DNA from: Candidatus Peregrinibacteria bacterium
GTDB taxonomy: Bacteria; Patescibacteriota; Gracilibacteria; UM-FILTER-43-11
Assembly: GCA_016932495.1 (NCBI GenBank)
Contig: JAFGCR010000041.1
Coordinates: 1 to 41,681, forward strand
Direction of reading: 5' to 3'
DNA length: 41,681 bases
Part shown: piece by piece, positions 3,517 to 38,937 of the stretch
How positions within the stretch are numbered: position 1 is the stretch's first letter
How the letters are laid out: the number at the start of each line of letters is the position of its first letter
Notes under the pieces: generated by a model
What the model was told of the DNA's origin: nothing
Database searches by the model: none
The model's input: only the letters and a program-made list of their open reading frames with translations
Position numbers and translations under genes: made by a program

Positions 3517-3823
3517 CTTTCTTCCATCATTCTGAATATAGCTTCTCTCGCGTCATCCTGAACACTACCCCTGTCATCCTGAACCACCCAACGTCATCCT
3601 GAACTTGTTTCAGGATCCCCCGGTAAACCGAATAACCAACCACCAGGCTTTTGTAGTTGAATAAATAGGCTTTCCATTTCGACTGAAAGGATTGTTGGAG
3701 GATCAGGAGATCCTGAACTAAATTCAGGATGACGGAATAGGCGGGAGATTCTGAACCATTTGCTGAACTTGTTTCAGTATAAATTCAAGGATGACTTTAA
3801 GAAGAGCTGAGTAAGGGAATTAT
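3517..3823. repeat. Convergent intergenic region with clustered REP-like palindromes
   Basis: The 307-bp gap between the converging ATPase and VirB6-like genes holds no ORF I would support. It carries the word GTCATCCTGAAC at 3552, 3573 and 3593; the third copy is completed to a hairpin ending at 3616. An inverted copy lies at 3709-3733 and a degraded one at 3763-3794. The same palindrome (TCCTGAAC...TTCAGGA) recurs at 17264-17284 and 38896-38919. These hairpins may end transcription from both sides. Confidence 0.8.
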
Positions 3824-5962
3824 TTATTCGGCTGGCGGAGCGGGCGGGTTTTTTTCCTGAGCATTTTTATCTTCAGCTTTTTCCTTTTTTATTTTATCAG
3901 CAGCCCTTTCGGTTTCCCCTGAACCTTTTCCCGGTTGTGCCGGTCCTTTTTTTTCAGGCCCCTCCGCCTTACCTGTTGTAGCGTCTGCCGCCCCCGCGAC
4001 TTCAGTCTCCGGTTTTGGCTTTGCGGTTCCTGGCAGTTCTTTCCTTTTGGCCATGTCAATGGCTTTAGCGGCGATAGCTTCCCAGTTTTTTCCAAATACG
4101 CCGGAGCTTTCCATCATCGTTCTGAATTTTTCGGAGTGCTGGGCGATGTCCTCGTTGCTTAAGCCAGTGATATTTTTGAGTTTGCTGAATTCTTCTGCTG
4201 ACATGGCGACAGTGATTCTTCCGGTCACTTCGCCCCGCTGGTGCGCCTGTTTGAGTTTATCTTCCGCACTTGCGAATTTTTCGGTCATGCCCATACCGCC
4301 CTGCATTTCACGGCGGAACTCGTCACGCAGGCCCTCGAATTTCCTCAGCGGGCTCATGGATTCCAGGCTGGCGCGGCGGTTCCAGTCAAGTTTGCCTTTA
4401 TCGTAATCATACAGCGGCATAATGGGTGCCCATTTGGGCGCGGAGCCGACCACTTTGGCCATGCGGGTGCCGTATTCGTTGATCTTGCCGGTAACGGCGT
4501 CGATCATCGGGACTTTTTTGAGCGCGGCAAACGTGCCGATCCAGATGATGCCCACGCTGATGATGAGCCAGATGAGTTCCTGCAGGCTGTCCATGCCCAT
4601 AAAGAGCGAGCTGGCGCTGAACACGTGGCTCGTTACTCCGCCTTTATCGTTCAGCTTCGCGAAAAAATCGTTCGACAGAGTCTGGCCGGTGGTGACCATA
4701 ATAAAGCCCACCGTCCACACGGCGCCCACCATGGCGGGCACAAAGGCCCAGTTTACAAAGGCTTTGATGCTGAAACTTTCTATGGCGCTCTGCATCTGCA
4801 TATCCTTGGTCAGGTAATAAGACAGCACCAGGAACGGGGAAAAAGCCATCAGGATCCACAAGGCCGCCATACGCATGATCAGGGCGATGTACAGGGACAT
4901 AAAGGCCACCAGATACGCAATCTGGATAATGAGCGAGAATAAAATGCCGATGGTCACTTTGCTGATATCGTCACCCGTGTTGGCTTGTGTTAAGTTCTGT
5001 ACGCGCGCCATGCTGAACGAGAGGAAGTACGAGGCGTTATTCTGGTTGTACTGGGCGATATCCATCTGTTTCCAGCAGACGGTGGCTTTTTCATAATATT
5101 CTGCTTTGGTATTAGGCTTTCCTCCCTCAGGGTATGCTTCATTATATTTTTTTTCAATTTCTGATATGTTGCAGTCTTTTAAATTGATGCTTTCTTTAGT
5201 ATCAGCAGGATAGTAAAAGGCAGTGGGCATACAATGGCCGGTGACTTTTAATTTACCCTTTTCGTCTGGTTTAAGTTCACAGTCTACCGTTTTAAATTCA
5301 CCCACCACACCCTGCACACCTGCCGGGATCTGGAACACCACATTGGTGGCCACATTGGCGGCGTCTAAGACCACCCGTCCGGCCAGCCATGAAAAGTTGA
5401 TGGCGATCAGCATGATGACGAATTTGGGCAGGGTCTTTTTTAAATCGGTGTTGCCTCCTTCTTCACTGCCGAAAATATGTTTCACTGCCAAAAAGAGCAG
5501 GATCAGCACAAAGACGATGTTCACGATATTCCGGCTCACCACCCAGATGCTGTGGAGCATACTCCCCATCTTATCGGCAAAAATATAGTCATTGCCTAAA
5601 AAGTTCCCGATGTTGAACGTGAAGAAGTGGATAAGCGGGTTGAACAGGGAATTGACGTAGGTAGAGGCTTTGGCTACCGTTTCCAGAATTGCCTTGATGT
5701 CCAGCGGGTCTTTGGGTTTTTCGGGAGCTGCTGTTGTCGGCGGTGCAGTATCTTCTGCAAAAGCTTTGGGGATAAAATAATCTTCGATTGTGGGGCGATT
5801 GTGGGGCGATTGTGGGGCGATTGTGGGGCCAGTCGTAGACCCGATTGTAGACCCAGTCGTAGACCCGATTGTGGAAGTTACTGGGAGGGCGGTGACGTTG
5901 AATACGCCGATAGCAAGGGTGGTCAGCAGAAGGCCTTTGATGAATTTTTGTATATTTTTCAT
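3824..5962 (-). CDS. VirB6/TrbL-like polytopic membrane protein
   Basis: 712 residues. A signal-like hydrophobic start (about 8-25) is followed by a low-complexity Ser/Thr/Gly/Pro stretch encoded by a minisatellite, then two membrane segments around 140-200. A soluble loop comes next, then a cluster of segments including IALIMRMAALWILMAFSPF and LIWLIISVGIIWIGTFAAL. The C-terminal 100 residues are charged and Pro/Lys-rich, likely cytoplasmic and disordered. This architecture matches the TrbL/VirB6 inner-membrane channel component found in CPR genomes. It is the last gene of a minus operon, 22 bp after its neighbour. The assignment rests on topology and the RMAALW segment; the exact family needs a profile search. 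Confidence 0.75.
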   Translation of the reverse strand: MKNIQKFIKGLLLTTLAIGVFNVTALPVTSTIGSTTGSTIGSTTGPTIAPQSPHNRPTIEDYFIPKAFAEDTAPPTTAAPEKPKDPLDIKAILETVAKASTYVNSLFNPLIHFFTFNIGNFLGNDYIFADKMGSMLHSIWVVSRNIVNIVFVLILLFLAVKHIFGSEEGGNTDLKKTLPKFVIMLIAINFSWLAGRVVLDAANVATNVVFQIPAGVQGVVGEFKTVDCELKPDEKGKLKVTGHCMPTAFYYPADTKESINLKDCNISEIEKKYNEAYPEGGKPNTKAEYYEKATVCWKQMDIAQYNQNNASYFLSFSMARVQNLTQANTGDDISKVTIGILFSLIIQIAYLVAFMSLYIALIMRMAALWILMAFSPFLVLSYYLTKDMQMQSAIESFSIKAFVNWAFVPAMVGAVWTVGFIMVTTGQTLSNDFFAKLNDKGGVTSHVFSASSLFMGMDSLQELIWLIISVGIIWIGTFAALKKVPMIDAVTGKINEYGTRMAKVVGSAPKWAPIMPLYDYDKGKLDWNRRASLESMSPLRKFEGLRDEFRREMQGGMGMTEKFASAEDKLKQAHQRGEVTGRITVAMSAEEFSKLKNITGLSNEDIAQHSEKFRTMMESSGVFGKNWEAIAAKAIDMAKRKELPGTAKPKPETEVAGAADATTGKAEGPEKKGPAQPGKGSGETERAADKIKKEKAEDKNAQEKNPPAPPAE
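5785..5878. repeat. Minisatellite inside the VirB6-like gene (11-bp then 12-bp units)
   Basis: Four perfect 11-bp units CGATTGTGGGG (5785-5828) are followed by four 12-bp units alternating AGTCGTAGACCC and GATTGTAGACCC (5831-5878, the last degenerate). They encode the tetrapeptide repeat STIG/STTG and the following PQSPHNRPTI segment near the N terminus. The 12-bp word also forms the intergenic array at 26676-26711. Confidence 0.95.
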
Positions 5963-10674: not shown

Positions 10675-10757
10675 CATTTGACACCTGACAATTGACGGCT
10701 ATCGTGAATCGTAACACGAAGTTCGATCGGGCACCGAGTTACGATAAACGAAAGCCG
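10671..10757. repeat. Heptad array and palindromic element after prfA
   Basis: Four 7-bp units of the TTGACAT type (10671-10698) overlap the prfA stop codon. They run into a palindrome whose arms, 10697-10715 and 10738-10756, match at 16 of 19 positions. Its core (ACGAAGTTCGATCGGG) is an inverted relative of the element at 13919-13991. Confidence 0.8.
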
Positions 10758-13909: not shown

Positions 13910-13918
13910 TTTGTGTAG

Positions 13919-13991
13919 TCGGTTAACGTTTATCGTAACCCGATACCCGATCGAGCTTCGTGTTACGAGTTACGATAACCGAGTTAATCGG
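13919..13991. repeat. Palindromic heptad element (family with 10697 and 35550)
   Basis: The left arm, 13919-13939, is identical over 21 bp to 35550-35570 inside rlmD. The right arm, 13969-13991, is the imperfect complement. Read in steps of seven, the words pass from TCGTAAC-like to GTTACGA-like at the centre. It begins 10 bases after the FecR gene stop. Confidence 0.85.
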
Positions 13992-14073
13992 GTGTCAATC
14001 CGTAATTGAAAAATGGGCTGATTTCGCTCTTGCGGGGAGCCTCTTTTTACTATAAACTCTAAGGGCTTTTTTT

Positions 14074-16190
<2,117 letters not shown>

Positions 16191-16210
16191 TTATTTTTTA
16201 ATAAAATAAG

Positions 16211-16272
16211 TGTCTCGTGTTTTGTGTCTCGTGTCTAGCGAGTCACGAAGCACGAGTCACGAGTCACGAATT
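16211..16272. repeat. Heptad repeat with central inversion before secF
   Basis: Four 7-bp units of type TGTCTCG (16211-16238) are followed by four of the near-complementary type CGAGTCA (16239-16266), then six bases and the secF ATG. Positions 16224-16263 match 24633-24672 perfectly over 40 bp in inverted orientation. Confidence 0.92.
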
Positions 16273-17190: not shown

Positions 17191-17296
17191 ATTTCTGATT
17201 TCGCATTTTAGATTTCTGAATCAGATGTGACATTTTTAGATGTTAAATAAAATGCGGAATCTGATCCTGAACTTGATTCAGGATGAAATCAGAAAT
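17191..17296. repeat. Nested palindrome with heptad words after secF
   Basis: It starts at the base after the secF stop. The outer 12-bp perfect inverted repeat is ATTTCTGATTTC (17191-17202) against 17285-17296. The left arm continues in 7-bp steps (ATTTCTG, ATTTCGC, ATTTTAG, ATTTCTG at 17191-17218). The interior carries the REP-like hairpin ATCCTGAAC...TTCAGGAT (17264-17284). Confidence 0.85.
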
Positions 17297-24624: not shown

Positions 24625-24672
24625 AGTTGTGTCTCGTGACTCGTGCTTCGTGACTCGCTAGACACGAGACAC
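24625..24672. repeat. Heptad repeat filling the queE-queC gap
   Basis: The whole spacer between the queE stop and queC start is repeat. On the minus strand two TGTCTCG-type units are followed by four CGAGTCA-type units. Positions 24633-24672 are the 40-bp perfect inverted copy of 16224-16263. Confidence 0.92.
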
Positions 24673-25290
24673 TTATTTAATATTCATTATTATATGCAAT
24701 CGAGATGAAAAATTATACCCTTCTTTTTTGCAACTCTCAACCAGCCATCCGGACCGTTTAAGGATGGTCGCGCGGGAGGTCCCTTCCGGCATCAGGTAGA
24801 CCGAGGTTTTTGGGATTTTGTATTTTCGTATAAAAGCATTGATTTCTTTTAAATCCTCTCCTTCCTGTACAATAAATTTGTACAAGACTTTTTTATTGGC
24901 GGGCTTCACCCTAAGAGAGTAAGGGGGGTTACCTGAATTTTTGAGTTTTGGTGAACAATTTATTTGTTCAATAAAACCGGTTATCCTGCAGGCAACACTG
25001 CCATTGGTCTCGAGCTCAACCGTATAGTTTTTAAGTTTTTTTAAAAGCTCTTTCAGTCCATTCTGTTGCAGTAACGGTTCCCCTCCAGTGATTACCAGAT
25101 GCCGGCAGGGGTATTTTCTGATGGCCCGGATGATGTCGTTTGTCTCCATTTCCCCTCCCTGTTTCCACGCGTATTTGGTGTCGCACCACTTGCACCTCAG
25201 ATTACATCCGCTCAGCCTCAAAAACACCGCCGGTTTGCCGGCATTCGGCCCCTCCCCCTGGATGCTGTGGAAAATTTCACTGATTATCAT
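24673..25290 (-). CDS. queE: 7-carboxy-7-deazaguanine synthase (radical SAM)
   Basis: 205 residues. It forms the deazapurine ring from 6-carboxytetrahydropterin. FHSIQGEGPNAG at the N terminus and the cluster motif CNLRCKWCD are diagnostic, as is ITGGEPLLQ. The start at 25290 is chosen because the longer open frame only translates the 7-bp repeat upstream (RHETRDT-like). queD and folE, which supply the substrate, are not in the window. First queuosine gene of the run. Confidence 0.95.
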   Translation of the reverse strand: MIISEIFHSIQGEGPNAGKPAVFLRLSGCNLRCKWCDTKYAWKQGGEMETNDIIRAIRKYPCRHLVITGGEPLLQQNGLKELLKKLKNYTVELETNGSVACRITGFIEQINCSPKLKNSGNPPYSLRVKPANKKVLYKFIVQEGEDLKEINAFIRKYKIPKTSVYLMPEGTSRATILKRSGWLVESCKKEGYNFSSRLHIIMNIK

Positions 25291-32816: not shown

Positions 32817-33665
32817 TTACCCCTTTATTTTTTTCAAAAACCGCTTCCTCGGATTCCCTTTAAAAAGGTGAGACCAGCGGTATTTAAGGGCGTCTTTAAA
32901 GTGCTGTCTCAGGATCCAGGTTTTGAAGAATTCCTTTAACCCTCCGGCGGAGGCGCGGAGGCCGTCGGCGTGGACGGTGACATCGGGGTGATAGATGACC
33001 TGGTAGCCCGCCTGCCAGCATTTAAAACAGTAGTCCGGATCGGACATGAAAATGAGGTAATCCTGGTTGAGGCCGCCGAGTTTGTTCCAAAGGGTGCGGC
33101 GGGTGATCCAGAAGGAGGACTGGAGCCAGTCTACGGGCTGGGTCTTATAGTAGTTGAGGTCCCGGCATTCGTCTTTGGCGACGAGCGAGCGGAGGAGTGG
33201 CAGGCGGCGCAGGAATGTGCGGCGGGCGATCTGGAGGGTGAGTTTGGGAAAGCGCCGAACGGTCATGGCGATGCTTCCGTCGCCCTCATTGACCTGCTGG
33301 GGCCCGAGCACGCCCACTTCCGGATGTTTATCCATGTAGGTGATAAGTTTCTGGAGGGTCTTTTTGTCTTTCCAGACGATATCGGGATTGACGATGAGGA
33401 TGTAGTCGCCCTTGGATTTTTTGACTCCGCGATTGTTGCCCTTGGGGTAGCCGAGATTTTCGTCGTTGATGATGATCTTAACGTTTCGGTGCTTGCGGAG
33501 GGTCTTGAGCTTTTTGGCGTTAAGCGGGTTGGCGGAATTATCCACCACGATGACTTCGTAGGGAAAATCAGTGATTTGCTCCAAAATACTCTCCACGTTC
33601 TCACAGACGCGGCGGGATTTGAGGTAATCGAGGATGATGATGGATGCTTTGGGTCTTTCTTTCAT
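32817..33665 (-). CDS. Family 2 glycosyltransferase (rhamnosyltransferase-like)
   Basis: 282 residues. GT-A fold: ASIIILDYLKS at the N terminus, VIVVDNSANPL, NDENLGYPKGNNRGVKKSKGDYILIVNPDIVW (the NPD serves as the DxD-type metal site), and FMSDPDYCFKCWQAGYQVIYHPDVTVHADG near the acceptor site. The pattern fits WbbL-type rhamnosyl or related transferases acting on surface polysaccharide at the inner membrane. The ATG at 33665 is chosen; the extension upstream translates the heptad repeat. The next gene encodes another family 2 enzyme. Confidence 0.88.
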   Translation of the reverse strand: MKERPKASIIILDYLKSRRVCENVESILEQITDFPYEVIVVDNSANPLNAKKLKTLRKHRNVKIIINDENLGYPKGNNRGVKKSKGDYILIVNPDIVWKDKKTLQKLITYMDKHPEVGVLGPQQVNEGDGSIAMTVRRFPKLTLQIARRTFLRRLPLLRSLVAKDECRDLNYYKTQPVDWLQSSFWITRRTLWNKLGGLNQDYLIFMSDPDYCFKCWQAGYQVIYHPDVTVHADGLRASAGGLKEFFKTWILRQHFKDALKYRWSHLFKGNPRKRFLKKIKG

Positions 33666-33667
33666 GG

Positions 33668-33733
33668 TCGTGTCTCGTGTCTCGTGTCTTGTGTCTTGTG
33701 TCTCGCGAGTCACGAGTCACTAGTCACGAGTCA
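33668..33733. repeat. Heptad repeat with central inversion between glycosyltransferases
   Basis: Five units of TCGTGTC/TTGTGTC (33668-33702) are followed by four of CGAGTCA/CTAGTCA (33706-33733). The two words are near-complementary. The array runs from the start of one gene almost to the stop of the previous one. Confidence 0.93.
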
Positions 33734-34762
33734 CTAATTCATTAGTTTCTCAATTTTACTCGCCGCGATCCGGAATTTAATGGCGCCGCGTTTGTCGTCC
33801 AGTTCACTTTGCACTTCTTTGACCAGTTCGAGCTGTTTTAAGAGTTCCGGTTCCCGCAGGCGGCAGTAGAGTTTGGCCAGACTGTTAGTAAGGCTGGTGC
33901 GGAGGCGCACGCCGGTAGAGAATTCGGGGAGGTAGTCTTTGTACAGGACGGCCTGCTGGCCGAAAAAGGAGTTTTCACGCACAAAGTCTGATTTTCCTTT
34001 GCGCCCTTTTAAGATCCTCATCAGGCGGAAGGGGGATTGTTCGAAATTGCCGGCCTGACGGTCGTGGTAGACTTTGACATGGGGAATAAAGAGTGATCGG
34101 TGGCCGGCCCACTGCAGGCGGTAGGCCAGGTCCACGTCGTTTTTGTAGTGGAGCAGTGAATCGTAGTATTCGGGAAGGCCCGCATTGTTTTGATAAGCGA
34201 CGTCCTGAAGCGCGTTTTTGCGGAAGATGCTGAGTGCCCCTGACGGGCCGAAAATATCCCGCATTTCATCGTACTGCCCGTTGTCTTCCTCCCCCTGCCC
34301 GATGTCGTAAAAGTGGTGGGAACGGGTGAGGCCGATGCCGCAGCTGTCGATGAGGTTCGTTTCCGCGCGGTTCGCAAAATCCCACCGCATCAGTTTAACG
34401 GTGGCGGAGCCGTAATGGCGGTTTTCGGGTTCTTCCAGCGTGCCGATGGCCTGGCTGACGAAATCGGGCGGGTAACTCATATCCACACTGGCCGTGATGT
34501 AGTACTGGCCGTTCATCCGGCGCATCAGGCGGTTGTGCCCGCCGCTGTGCCACAGGTTGGGGCCGCGTTCTATTTTGAGCGCCTGGAACACATTGGGCAG
34601 ATTGTGCTGGATGTATTCGATGGCTTCGCCCCGCGGGCTCTGGTCGCGCACCAGCAGTTCCAGATTCGGATAATCCTGGTTTAAGAGGCCTTCTAAGCAC
34701 GGTTTTAAATATTCTTCGTTTTTATGAAGCACGAGGCCGATGGTGACGAGGGGAGTGTACAT
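33734..34762 (-). CDS. Family 2 glycosyltransferase
   Basis: 342 residues. The N terminus VTIGLVLHKNEEYLKPCLEGLLNQDYPNLELLVRDQS is the GT-A nucleotide-binding half. ITASVDMSYPPDF supplies the probable metal-binding acidic residue, and YKNDVDLAYRLQWAGHRSLFIPHVKVYHDRQ forms the acceptor side. The C-terminal 80 residues are helical and may dock to the membrane. Likely works with the next gene on a glycan. The ATG at 34762 is followed upstream by a 13-bp-period repeat. Confidence 0.87.
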   Translation of the reverse strand: MYTPLVTIGLVLHKNEEYLKPCLEGLLNQDYPNLELLVRDQSPRGEAIEYIQHNLPNVFQALKIERGPNLWHSGGHNRLMRRMNGQYYITASVDMSYPPDFVSQAIGTLEEPENRHYGSATVKLMRWDFANRAETNLIDSCGIGLTRSHHFYDIGQGEEDNGQYDEMRDIFGPSGALSIFRKNALQDVAYQNNAGLPEYYDSLLHYKNDVDLAYRLQWAGHRSLFIPHVKVYHDRQAGNFEQSPFRLMRILKGRKGKSDFVRENSFFGQQAVLYKDYLPEFSTGVRLRTSLTNSLAKLYCRLREPELLKQLELVKEVQSELDDKRGAIKFRIAASKIEKLMN

Positions 34763-34880: not shown

Positions 34881-36077
34881 ATGCAGGAACCCAAATGTAA
34901 ATATTTCGGCAAGTGCGGGGGGTGCGCTACTCAGCACCTTCCTTACGAAATCCAGCTGGAGAATAAGAAAAAACGCCTGAGTCAGACGATCGGGTTTGAG
35001 GGGGTGCAGGTCTTTTCGGATGAGCCGTGGCATTATAGGAACCGTATGGATATGGCGTTTGTGAAAGGGGGGATCGGATTCCGCGAAAAAGGGAAGTGGT
35101 GGTCGCTTCTGCGGGTAACGGACTGCCCGATCTCCAATCACCGTTTAAATGAACTGAATCAGGAGATCTGCGCGTTTTTCGGGGAGGACATTGACGCCTT
35201 TGACGTGAAAAAGCGGACGGGGACGTTCAAGTACGCGGTCATCCGCACGCCCCAGAAGGATTCCTGTATTTCATTTGTGCTTAACAAAGATTCTTCCCGC
35301 CTGAGCGAAGCGGTCTCTAAAGTGGAGGACTTTGCCAAAAAAACCACGGCCAACAATATCCTTATCACTTACACCGATTCCAAAAGCAGTCAGAGTATCG
35401 GGGAGGATTATATCGCGGTGAAGGGGAGTGATATGCTGGAGGAGACGCTTTTAGGGAAGGTTTTCCGTTACAGCGCTCAGGGGTTCTTCCAGAACAATTC
35501 CGTGATGGCGGAGAAAATGCACTGTTATGTTCGTGAAATACTTACTGAATCGGTTAACGTTTATCGTAACTCGAAGCTCGAGTCAGCTAACATTTCCCAT
35601 AACACGAAATCCGAATCGCTCCAGTCTCGAGATACGATAACCGATAAACAACATCTGCTTGATCTGTACGGCGGGGTGGGGGCGTTCGGGATCGTTAACG
35701 CGGATTTATTTCACAAGGTCACTTCGGTGGAAAGTTACGAAGGCTGTACGGTGGCGGCGCAGGCGAACCTCGAACTCAACGGCATTAAAAATATGGAGGC
35801 GATCTGTATAGATGCCAAGCGTCTGAAACAAGTGAAACTTCCTGAAAAAGATCTTTACGTGATCACCGATCCGCCGCGCAGCGGCATGCACCCGGAGACC
35901 ATCATCCAGCTCCGTAAGCTGAAACCGGAGGTGCTTGTTTACATCTCATGCAATGTGGAGCAGTTAGGCAAAGACCTGCCGAAGCTGACGGACTACAAAA
36001 TCAAATCCGCGGCACTGTTTGACCTTTTTCCACAGACGAACCATATGGAAAGTGTGATTGAGCTGGTACTCAAATAA
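34881..36077 (+). CDS. rlmD: RlmD/TrmA-family RNA uracil-C5 methyltransferase with in-frame repeat insert
   Basis: 398 residues. SAM-dependent methylation of a uracil in rRNA (or tRNA). Iron-sulphur cysteines lie at 6, 12, 15 and 82. The Rossmann motif DLYGGVGAFG begins at 261, DPPRSG at 330, and the catalytic Cys 357 is in YISCN. HMESVIEL ends the family signature. Residues about 224-257, between YVREILT and HLLDLYGG, are a 34-residue insert encoded by a palindromic heptad repeat; other members have only a few residues here. The insert sits on a surface loop before the SAM domain and probably does not destroy activity. RlmC, RlmD and TrmA cannot be separated by eye. Confidence 0.9.
   Translation: MQEPKCKYFGKCGGCATQHLPYEIQLENKKKRLSQTIGFEGVQVFSDEPWHYRNRMDMAFVKGGIGFREKGKWWSLLRVTDCPISNHRLNELNQEICAFFGEDIDAFDVKKRTGTFKYAVIRTPQKDSCISFVLNKDSSRLSEAVSKVEDFAKKTTANNILITYTDSKSSQSIGEDYIAVKGSDMLEETLLGKVFRYSAQGFFQNNSVMAEKMHCYVREILTESVNVYRNSKLESANISHNTKSESLQSRDTITDKQHLLDLYGGVGAFGIVNADLFHKVTSVESYEGCTVAAQANLELNGIKNMEAICIDAKRLKQVKLPEKDLYVITDPPRSGMHPETIIQLRKLKPEVLVYISCNVEQLGKDLPKLTDYKIKSAALFDLFPQTNHMESVIELVLK
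35550..35649. repeat. Palindromic heptad element inside rlmD
   Basis: The first 21 bp (35550-35570) equal 13919-13939 exactly. The end (35632-35649) carries the complementary ACGATAACCGAT word. It is read through without stops and keeps the frame. Confidence 0.92.
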
Positions 36078-36143
36078 ATCCGAAATCCGAATACCGAAAT
36101 ACGAAAAAATCCGAAATCTGAATACCGAAATCCGAATATCAAA
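36078..36143. repeat. Heptad array (ATCCGAA) after rlmD
   Basis: It starts on the base after the rlmD stop. Four 7-bp units (ATCCGAA, ATCCGAA, TACCGAA, ATACGAA) are followed by AAA, four more, and a degenerate ninth. Looser complementary TTCG-type words continue to about 36215. Confidence 0.93.
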
Positions 36144-36228
36144 TTTTACAAATTTTTTGAATATTGGGATTTGAAAAATTCGACATTTTTCGCATTTCGA
36201 AGATTCGAGTTTCAAATTTAAAAAAGCC

Positions 36229-38881: not shown

Positions 38882-38937
38882 AAAAACCCTCTCTTTAGAT
38901 CCTGAAACAAGTTCAGGATGACAATGAGAGGGTTTTT
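38882..38937. terminator. Bidirectional terminator built around a REP-like hairpin
   Basis: The outer 12-bp stem AAAAACCCTCTC (38882-38893) pairs with 38926-38937, giving a T run on both strands. The inner hairpin ATCCTGAA...TTCAGGAT is the dispersed palindrome. It separates the convergent lipoprotein and pnp genes. Confidence 0.9.

Follow-up and report, generated by a model that had tools for sequence, protein, structure and literature searches.

A dispersed palindromic repeat of 7-nt units lies in frame within an RlmD/TrmA-family methyltransferase gene of a Peregrinibacteria genome

The methyltransferase gene and its insert

The window, that is, the whole stretch of 41,681 nt that was analysed, carries a gene for an RNA uracil-C5 methyltransferase of the RlmD/TrmA family, intergenic copies of a 62-bp palindrome and further palindromic tracts between genes (Table 1). 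The fold of the enzyme is matched by RlmCD, RumA and the archaeal tRNA U54 methyltransferase, and the residues invariant in the family are kept in the homologue alignment, namely C6, C12, C15 and C82, which we take, from RumA, to be Fe-S ligands, as well as the DPPR and SCN motifs. The gene had been named rlmD: the family holds, and the name is probable, given that the NCBIfam RlmD model (TIGR00479) scores the ORF at 181.9 bits against a cut-off of 183.55. Outside its own family, the protein is nearest to proteins from genomes labelled Woesearchaeota and Aminicenantes (up to 59%), other families of the same class holding no nearer relatives, and this closeness suggests transfer of the gene. 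The homologue in another genus (G015, locus L019) carries a different palindrome, CCTGCCTACCGGCAGGCAGG, in frame near residue 100 (LPTGRQA).

Table 1. Features of the window, with positions counted from its first letter
Feature	Position	Strand	Evidence
RlmD/TrmA-family RNA uracil-C5 methyltransferase ORF, 398 aa	34881..36077	+	PF05958; TIGR00479 just under cut-off; fold matches
In-frame palindromic insert, copy of the 62-bp family, ~1.5 units, codons 224-256/257	35550..35648	+	covariance model E=1.8e-9; missing in most homologues
Left arm of the insert; first 21 bp = 13919-13939	35550..35580	+	exact match, BLAST
Degenerate second unit, right arm CTCGAGATACGATAACCGAT at its end	35581..35648	+	72% BLAST match to 13917-13982; 28.4 bits, minus strand, 35584-35650
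Intergenic copy, 62-bp element, 10 nt past a stop codon, upstream of gyrB	13920..13981	+	BLAST, covariance model
Intergenic copy, 62-bp element, 21 nt past a prfA-like ORF	10696..10757	-	BLAST, covariance model
Intergenic heptad tract, ATCCGAA type, directly past the methyltransferase stop codon; kin of an Elp3 insert	36075..36148	+	
Another heptad palindrome family, upstream of gyrB	14071..14166		89% copy at a non-orthologous place in G001
TCGTGTC-type heptad palindrome (second family), before secF	16210..16272		
TCGTGTC-type heptad palindrome	24627..24674		
TCGTGTC-type heptad palindrome	33654..33750		

The insert begins with 21 bp (35550-35570, TCGGTTAACGTTTATCGTAAC) that are identical to positions 13919-13939 of an intergenic element, a match that BLAST lengthens to 25 bp at 96%, and its far end is closed by the complementary arm CTCGAGATACGATAACCGAT. 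It contains no stop codons and keeps the reading frame, with conserved blocks on either side, as seen in the frame check and in the homologue alignment, respectively. Apart from the BLAST extension, these features had all been described in the original prediction, which placed the insert at 35547-35650 (residues 224-257); the insert is real, and its size is amended to about 1.5 units, since a degenerate full copy comes after a left arm. When a covariance model is trained on the nine intergenic copies, with the copy in the ORF left out, it finds 35551-35650 at 51 bits (E=1.8e-9 over the whole genome), and the insert strand folds better than its shuffles both as RNA (z=-4.6) and as DNA (z=-2.8). 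Because of this E value and of the folding, the likeness of the insert to the intergenic repeat is beyond chance.

The linker that holds the insert is short in relatives. From the helix after the central domain to the first strand of the catalytic domain, 15 homologues of the same family mostly have 10-11 residues, compared with 38 here. Measured from MAEKM to LLDLYGGVG, the stretch has 50 residues, the longest among 81 homologues, of which 47 share the mode of 22 and the second longest reaches 41. The absence of the extra residues from homologues, put at 34 in the original prediction, is thus borne out as a net 28 codons over the commonest linker (+84 nt, or 12 heptads), and a loop of equal length, which would have spoken against an insertion, is seen in none of the 81. 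Alignment therefore supports an in-frame insertion of a palindromic repeat into a linker of which relatives have a short version. What speaks against it is that no close strain supplies a polymorphic empty site; the same-genus genome has no match to the methyltransferase gene.

AlphaFold2 models the methyltransferase with a mean pLDDT of 94.7; the insert lengthens a helix up to residue 239, after which the pLDDT is ~54 at residues 241-250. The core fold is accordingly predicted to be intact, with the insert forming a linker made of a helix extension and a low-confidence loop. The proposal that a peptide is added to the protein surface stands at the level of this AlphaFold2 prediction, as a helix extension followed by a flexible loop. 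The protein is presumably made and active, and the insert would be neutral for it.

A dispersed palindrome family

The unit of the family is a 62-bp imperfect palindrome with inverted arms that folds better than its shuffles. When the intergenic element is compared with the genome by BLAST, ten related places are returned, and the covariance model recovers the nine copies from which it was built together with the copy in the methyltransferase, that is, ten confident copies on eight contigs. The next match of the model (E=0.003) is a member of another repeat family. Only one of the ten copies lies inside an ORF, and it is the most degenerate of all. Eight of the nine intergenic copies lie at most 42 nt past a stop codon (P ~8e-4), two gaps being uninformative. 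None of 17 genomes of the same family, one of them of the same genus, contains the 62-bp family, and an Rfam search over the 41,681-nt window returned two tRNAs and nothing else.

The copies on contigs C41 and C39 have 106 bp in common at 91%, and they lie in non-orthologous, unrelated gaps. Given the ten copies on eight contigs, their lack in 17 relatives and this long shared stretch at non-orthologous sites, the family spreads, rather than only slipping at its site, as had been proposed. Further families are dispersed in a similar manner, among them the heptad palindrome at 14071-14166, with its 89% copy at a non-orthologous site of G001. More generally, 192 repeat pairs occur in a 313-kb sample of the genome.

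Heptad build of the intergenic DNA

The 62-bp palindrome and the other intergenic palindromes are built of 7-nt units, among them (TCGNNNN)n facing (NNNNCGA)n, TCGTGTC/GACACGA, TTCAATT, TGACATT and TCCGAAA. The lag-7 autocorrelation of intergenic DNA is z=11.1 within the window and z=17.7, with multiples at 14 and 21, in the 313-kb sample on which the genome-level repeat and periodicity statistics rest; coding DNA of that sample has no such signal. When a lag-7 excess above 0.02 is scored as presence, a strong intergenic 7-nt period is found in 12 of the 18 genomes of the family, and in none of six genomes that belong to the same class but to other families. The original prediction of one repeat family with a single intragenic copy was therefore right as to the existence of the family and too narrow otherwise, as its units are heptads, other families occur beside it, and more than one gene and genome carry such repeats, in part through what resembles local heptad expansion rather than copying.

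Other repeats accompany the heptads. An array of 11-nt ACTAATGGACC units occupies positions 1-98 of the window, at the contig start. The end of contig C47 (18080-18165) matches it at 98.8% identity; the two contigs may therefore adjoin each other in the genome, the assembly having broken at the 11-nt repeat. In a large membrane protein (ORF 3824-5962, minus strand), an in-frame 11-nt array (5771-5863) comes after the hydrophobic segment at the N-terminus, and an array 91% identical to it joins two D-Ala-D-Ala ligase domains within an ORF of contig C39. A further dispersed palindrome, ATCCTGAACTTGTTTCAGGAT, is present at 3596-3616, 3710-3730, 17264-17284 and 38899-38919 of the window. On contig C6 of genome G000, a Y1 transposase ORF (L064:2697-3371) contains an in-frame tandem repeat coding SVGIG several times.

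Several candidates for insertions were set aside. The GTG starts called at 16210 (secF), 25368 (radical-SAM-like) and 33713 (glycosyltransferase-like) extend the genes back into heptad palindromes; these are likely mis-called, the true starts probably lying further downstream, and an ORF of contig C28 with an N-terminal array of 11-mers likewise has a likely mis-called start. In a DNA search for orthologous empty intergenic sites in G001, the one match that was followed proved to be a repeat between other genes and not the orthologous gap.

Heptads in loops of housekeeping enzymes

The methyltransferase is not the only enzyme with such a tract. In this genome, in-frame heptad tracts are also present in Elp3 (two), MnmA and PrmC, and the inserts resemble intergenic tracts of the same genome, weakly so in PrmC. 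Across genera, the lag-7 signal is significant (shuffle p <=0.004) in the RlmD-like loops of this genome, G010 and G016 and in the Elp3, PrmC and MnmA loops of many genomes, and aligned homologues reveal that the words differ from genus to genus. The Elp3 loop carries GATGTCC x4 in G001 and ATCGCAC x4 in G012; the PrmC loops of other genera use AATCACA, AGATCTC or GGACTAT, and their MnmA loops CCAATGT/CCAATGA. TCGAAAA-type units are found in the RlmD-like linkers of G010 and G016, and that of G012 has an 11-nt repeat. Palindromes without heptads sit in the same loops elsewhere, for example in PrmC of G007 and in MnmA of G010. It should be noted that the second Elp3 tract lies in a linker that is about as long in relatives, and so not every loop tract is an insertion.

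Heptads are significant in 24 of the 40 loops from heptad-rich genomes, compared with 1 of the 17 from heptad-poor genomes (Fisher p=1e-4), and heptads in loops correlate with those between genes (Spearman 0.50, p=0.03); both p-values are optimistic, the cut-off having been set after the data were seen and the genomes being phylogenetically non-independent, and the four genes were chosen because this genome carries tracts in them. Aligned sequences place the same class of DNA in the loops of RlmD-like enzymes, Elp3, PrmC and MnmA across genera, and tolerant loops of several housekeeping enzymes in the family repeatedly host the kinds of repeat found between genes. It is possible, at slightly less than even odds, that a family-wide process in Peregrinibacteria both makes and spreads DNA of 7-nt (and 11-nt) units, often palindromic and with species-specific words, and goes on altering tolerant loops, which would be landing pads where the intergenic repeats of each species become protein.

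Origin of the insert

The preferred explanation, with a probability of about 0.8, is that a short palindrome of 7-nt units was copied to many places in the genome, and that one copy, lengthened to ~1.5 units, arrived or expanded in the linker that joins the central domain of the methyltransferase to its catalytic domain. There it would survive as an in-frame lengthening, free of stops in the frame used, with the frame kept (+84 nt) and a surface linker merely made longer. As to the mechanism behind the dispersal, we infer duplicative copying of short hairpin-forming units; local gain and loss of heptads would afterwards alter their length, and purifying selection would spare in-frame products in permissive loops only. 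Copying and slippage probably both act, because some loop arrays look like local slippage. It is unlikely, however, that slippage by itself accounts for the insert, the linker having grown in place by 7-nt replication slippage and resembling intergenic DNA through a shared mutational bias. The near-perfect simple arrays in Elp3 of G001 and G012 fit such growth, and heptanucleotide repeats have been proposed to form by polymerase slippage (proposal cited in PMC4679880), but the insert is no simple array; it matches a complex 62-bp family, as the covariance model and the 25-bp match attest, and copies of that family have long sequence in common at unlinked places.

Movement as a non-autonomous transposon of the REP or MITE kind, driven in trans by a Y1 (IS200-like) transposase of the genome, is doubtful. 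Four Y1_Tnp genes are present, the element has palindromic ends and dispersed copies, and its concentration just past stop codons is like the placement reported for REPs (PMC3733652). Nevertheless, none of the contigs of the four Y1_Tnp genes carries an element, nor do the flanks of these genes; the GTAG tag is absent; and the longest direct repeats flanking the copies, 0-5 nt, are within the null, the ragged element ends being such that they may hide an eroded target-site duplication. The clustering past genes, together with the stable folds, would equally suit a hairpin kept for a function in RNA or DNA, such as transcript ending, stability or protein binding, with the copy in the gene as a by-product or a regulatory hairpin of the mRNA. 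This is quite improbable, as no T run follows the hairpin in the copies read, the copy in the ORF is the most degenerate one, and the same loops in different genera hold unrelated, often unpaired sequence. An artefact of assembly or annotation is scarcely credible: the genome is a repeat-rich metagenome bin of 50 contigs, one of which ends within a repeat, whereas the frame and both flanks are intact here and analogous inserts occupy the same loop in independent assemblies of other genera. Dispersal of the palindrome by copying, followed by local change in length, thus remains the preferred reading; the earlier observation is confirmed, the evidence supports the main inference drawn from it, namely spread of the family, and the rest of the earlier interpretation is supported in part.

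Significance and comparison with known systems

Rickettsia is the best-known case of dispersed palindromes entering housekeeping genes in frame, a trait regarded as peculiar to that group. A literature search, with subscription journals mostly outside its scope, gave no description of such inserts for candidate-phyla genomes. Here, intergenic repeats would repeatedly become protein pieces, with related bacteria carrying repeats of their own, unlike those described here, in comparable loops of several housekeeping enzymes. An unrelated small-genome lineage, a 7-nt build and the reuse of the same loops across genera together offer a natural series of independent insertions, which can test how non-coding repeats turn into protein segments and which process makes them. 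They also carry a warning that odd linkers in candidate-phyla proteins may be translated repeats rather than functional domains.

Among known systems, MITEs share terminal inverted repeats with the element described here but differ in that no target-site duplication above the null accompanies it. REPs and their RAYTs are similar in being short dispersed palindromes, enriched just downstream of genes and occasionally intragenic (PMC3733652), in a genome with Y1 transposases, whereas the present element is longer and heptad-structured. Membership is ruled out, as there is no conserved GTAG tag, which precedes only one of the ten copies at the hairpin foot (13915), and no linked transposase. The tandem repeats of Borgs are fast-evolving short units that occur between genes and in ORFs, where they encode disordered protein segments; they form perfect head-to-tail arrays on extrachromosomal elements, in contrast to the degenerate, often inverted, chromosomal repeats in housekeeping enzymes seen here (PMC9879509). 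The TAACTGA heptamers of Beggiatoaceae and cyanobacteria share the 7-nt unit, the location near genes and a suspected horizontal spread, yet they are direct repeats of one fixed word, unlike the present case, in which the words are many, frequently form palindromes and also lie in frame inside genes (PMC4679880). Coding palindromes of nematomorph mitochondria likewise place inverted repeats inside genes that still encode functional proteins, but their arms encode conserved protein segments, while here they add linker residues (PMC6649704).

The closest parallel is to the Rickettsia palindromic elements, of which several families per genome are found both between genes and in frame within conserved metabolic genes (review PMC10969869). 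Both systems have a dispersed palindromic family, with ten copies, inverted arms and folding above shuffles in the present case, and an in-frame insert in a conserved gene, absent here from most homologues. They differ in size (~62 bp, or 100 bp in the ORF, against ~150 bp), in the heptad build, in the unrelated host phylum and in the share of copies within ORFs (one of ten, against nearly half of the R. conorii elements). The CGTC end reported for the elements of R. conorii (PMC3733652) is absent from either end of the 62-bp consensus and of the copies. The parallel drawn in the original prediction therefore holds for the way of working, as a dispersed palindrome inserted in frame, and not for family membership, which is not assigned; by analogy, the element would work like the Rickettsia palindromic elements, its closest functional counterpart.
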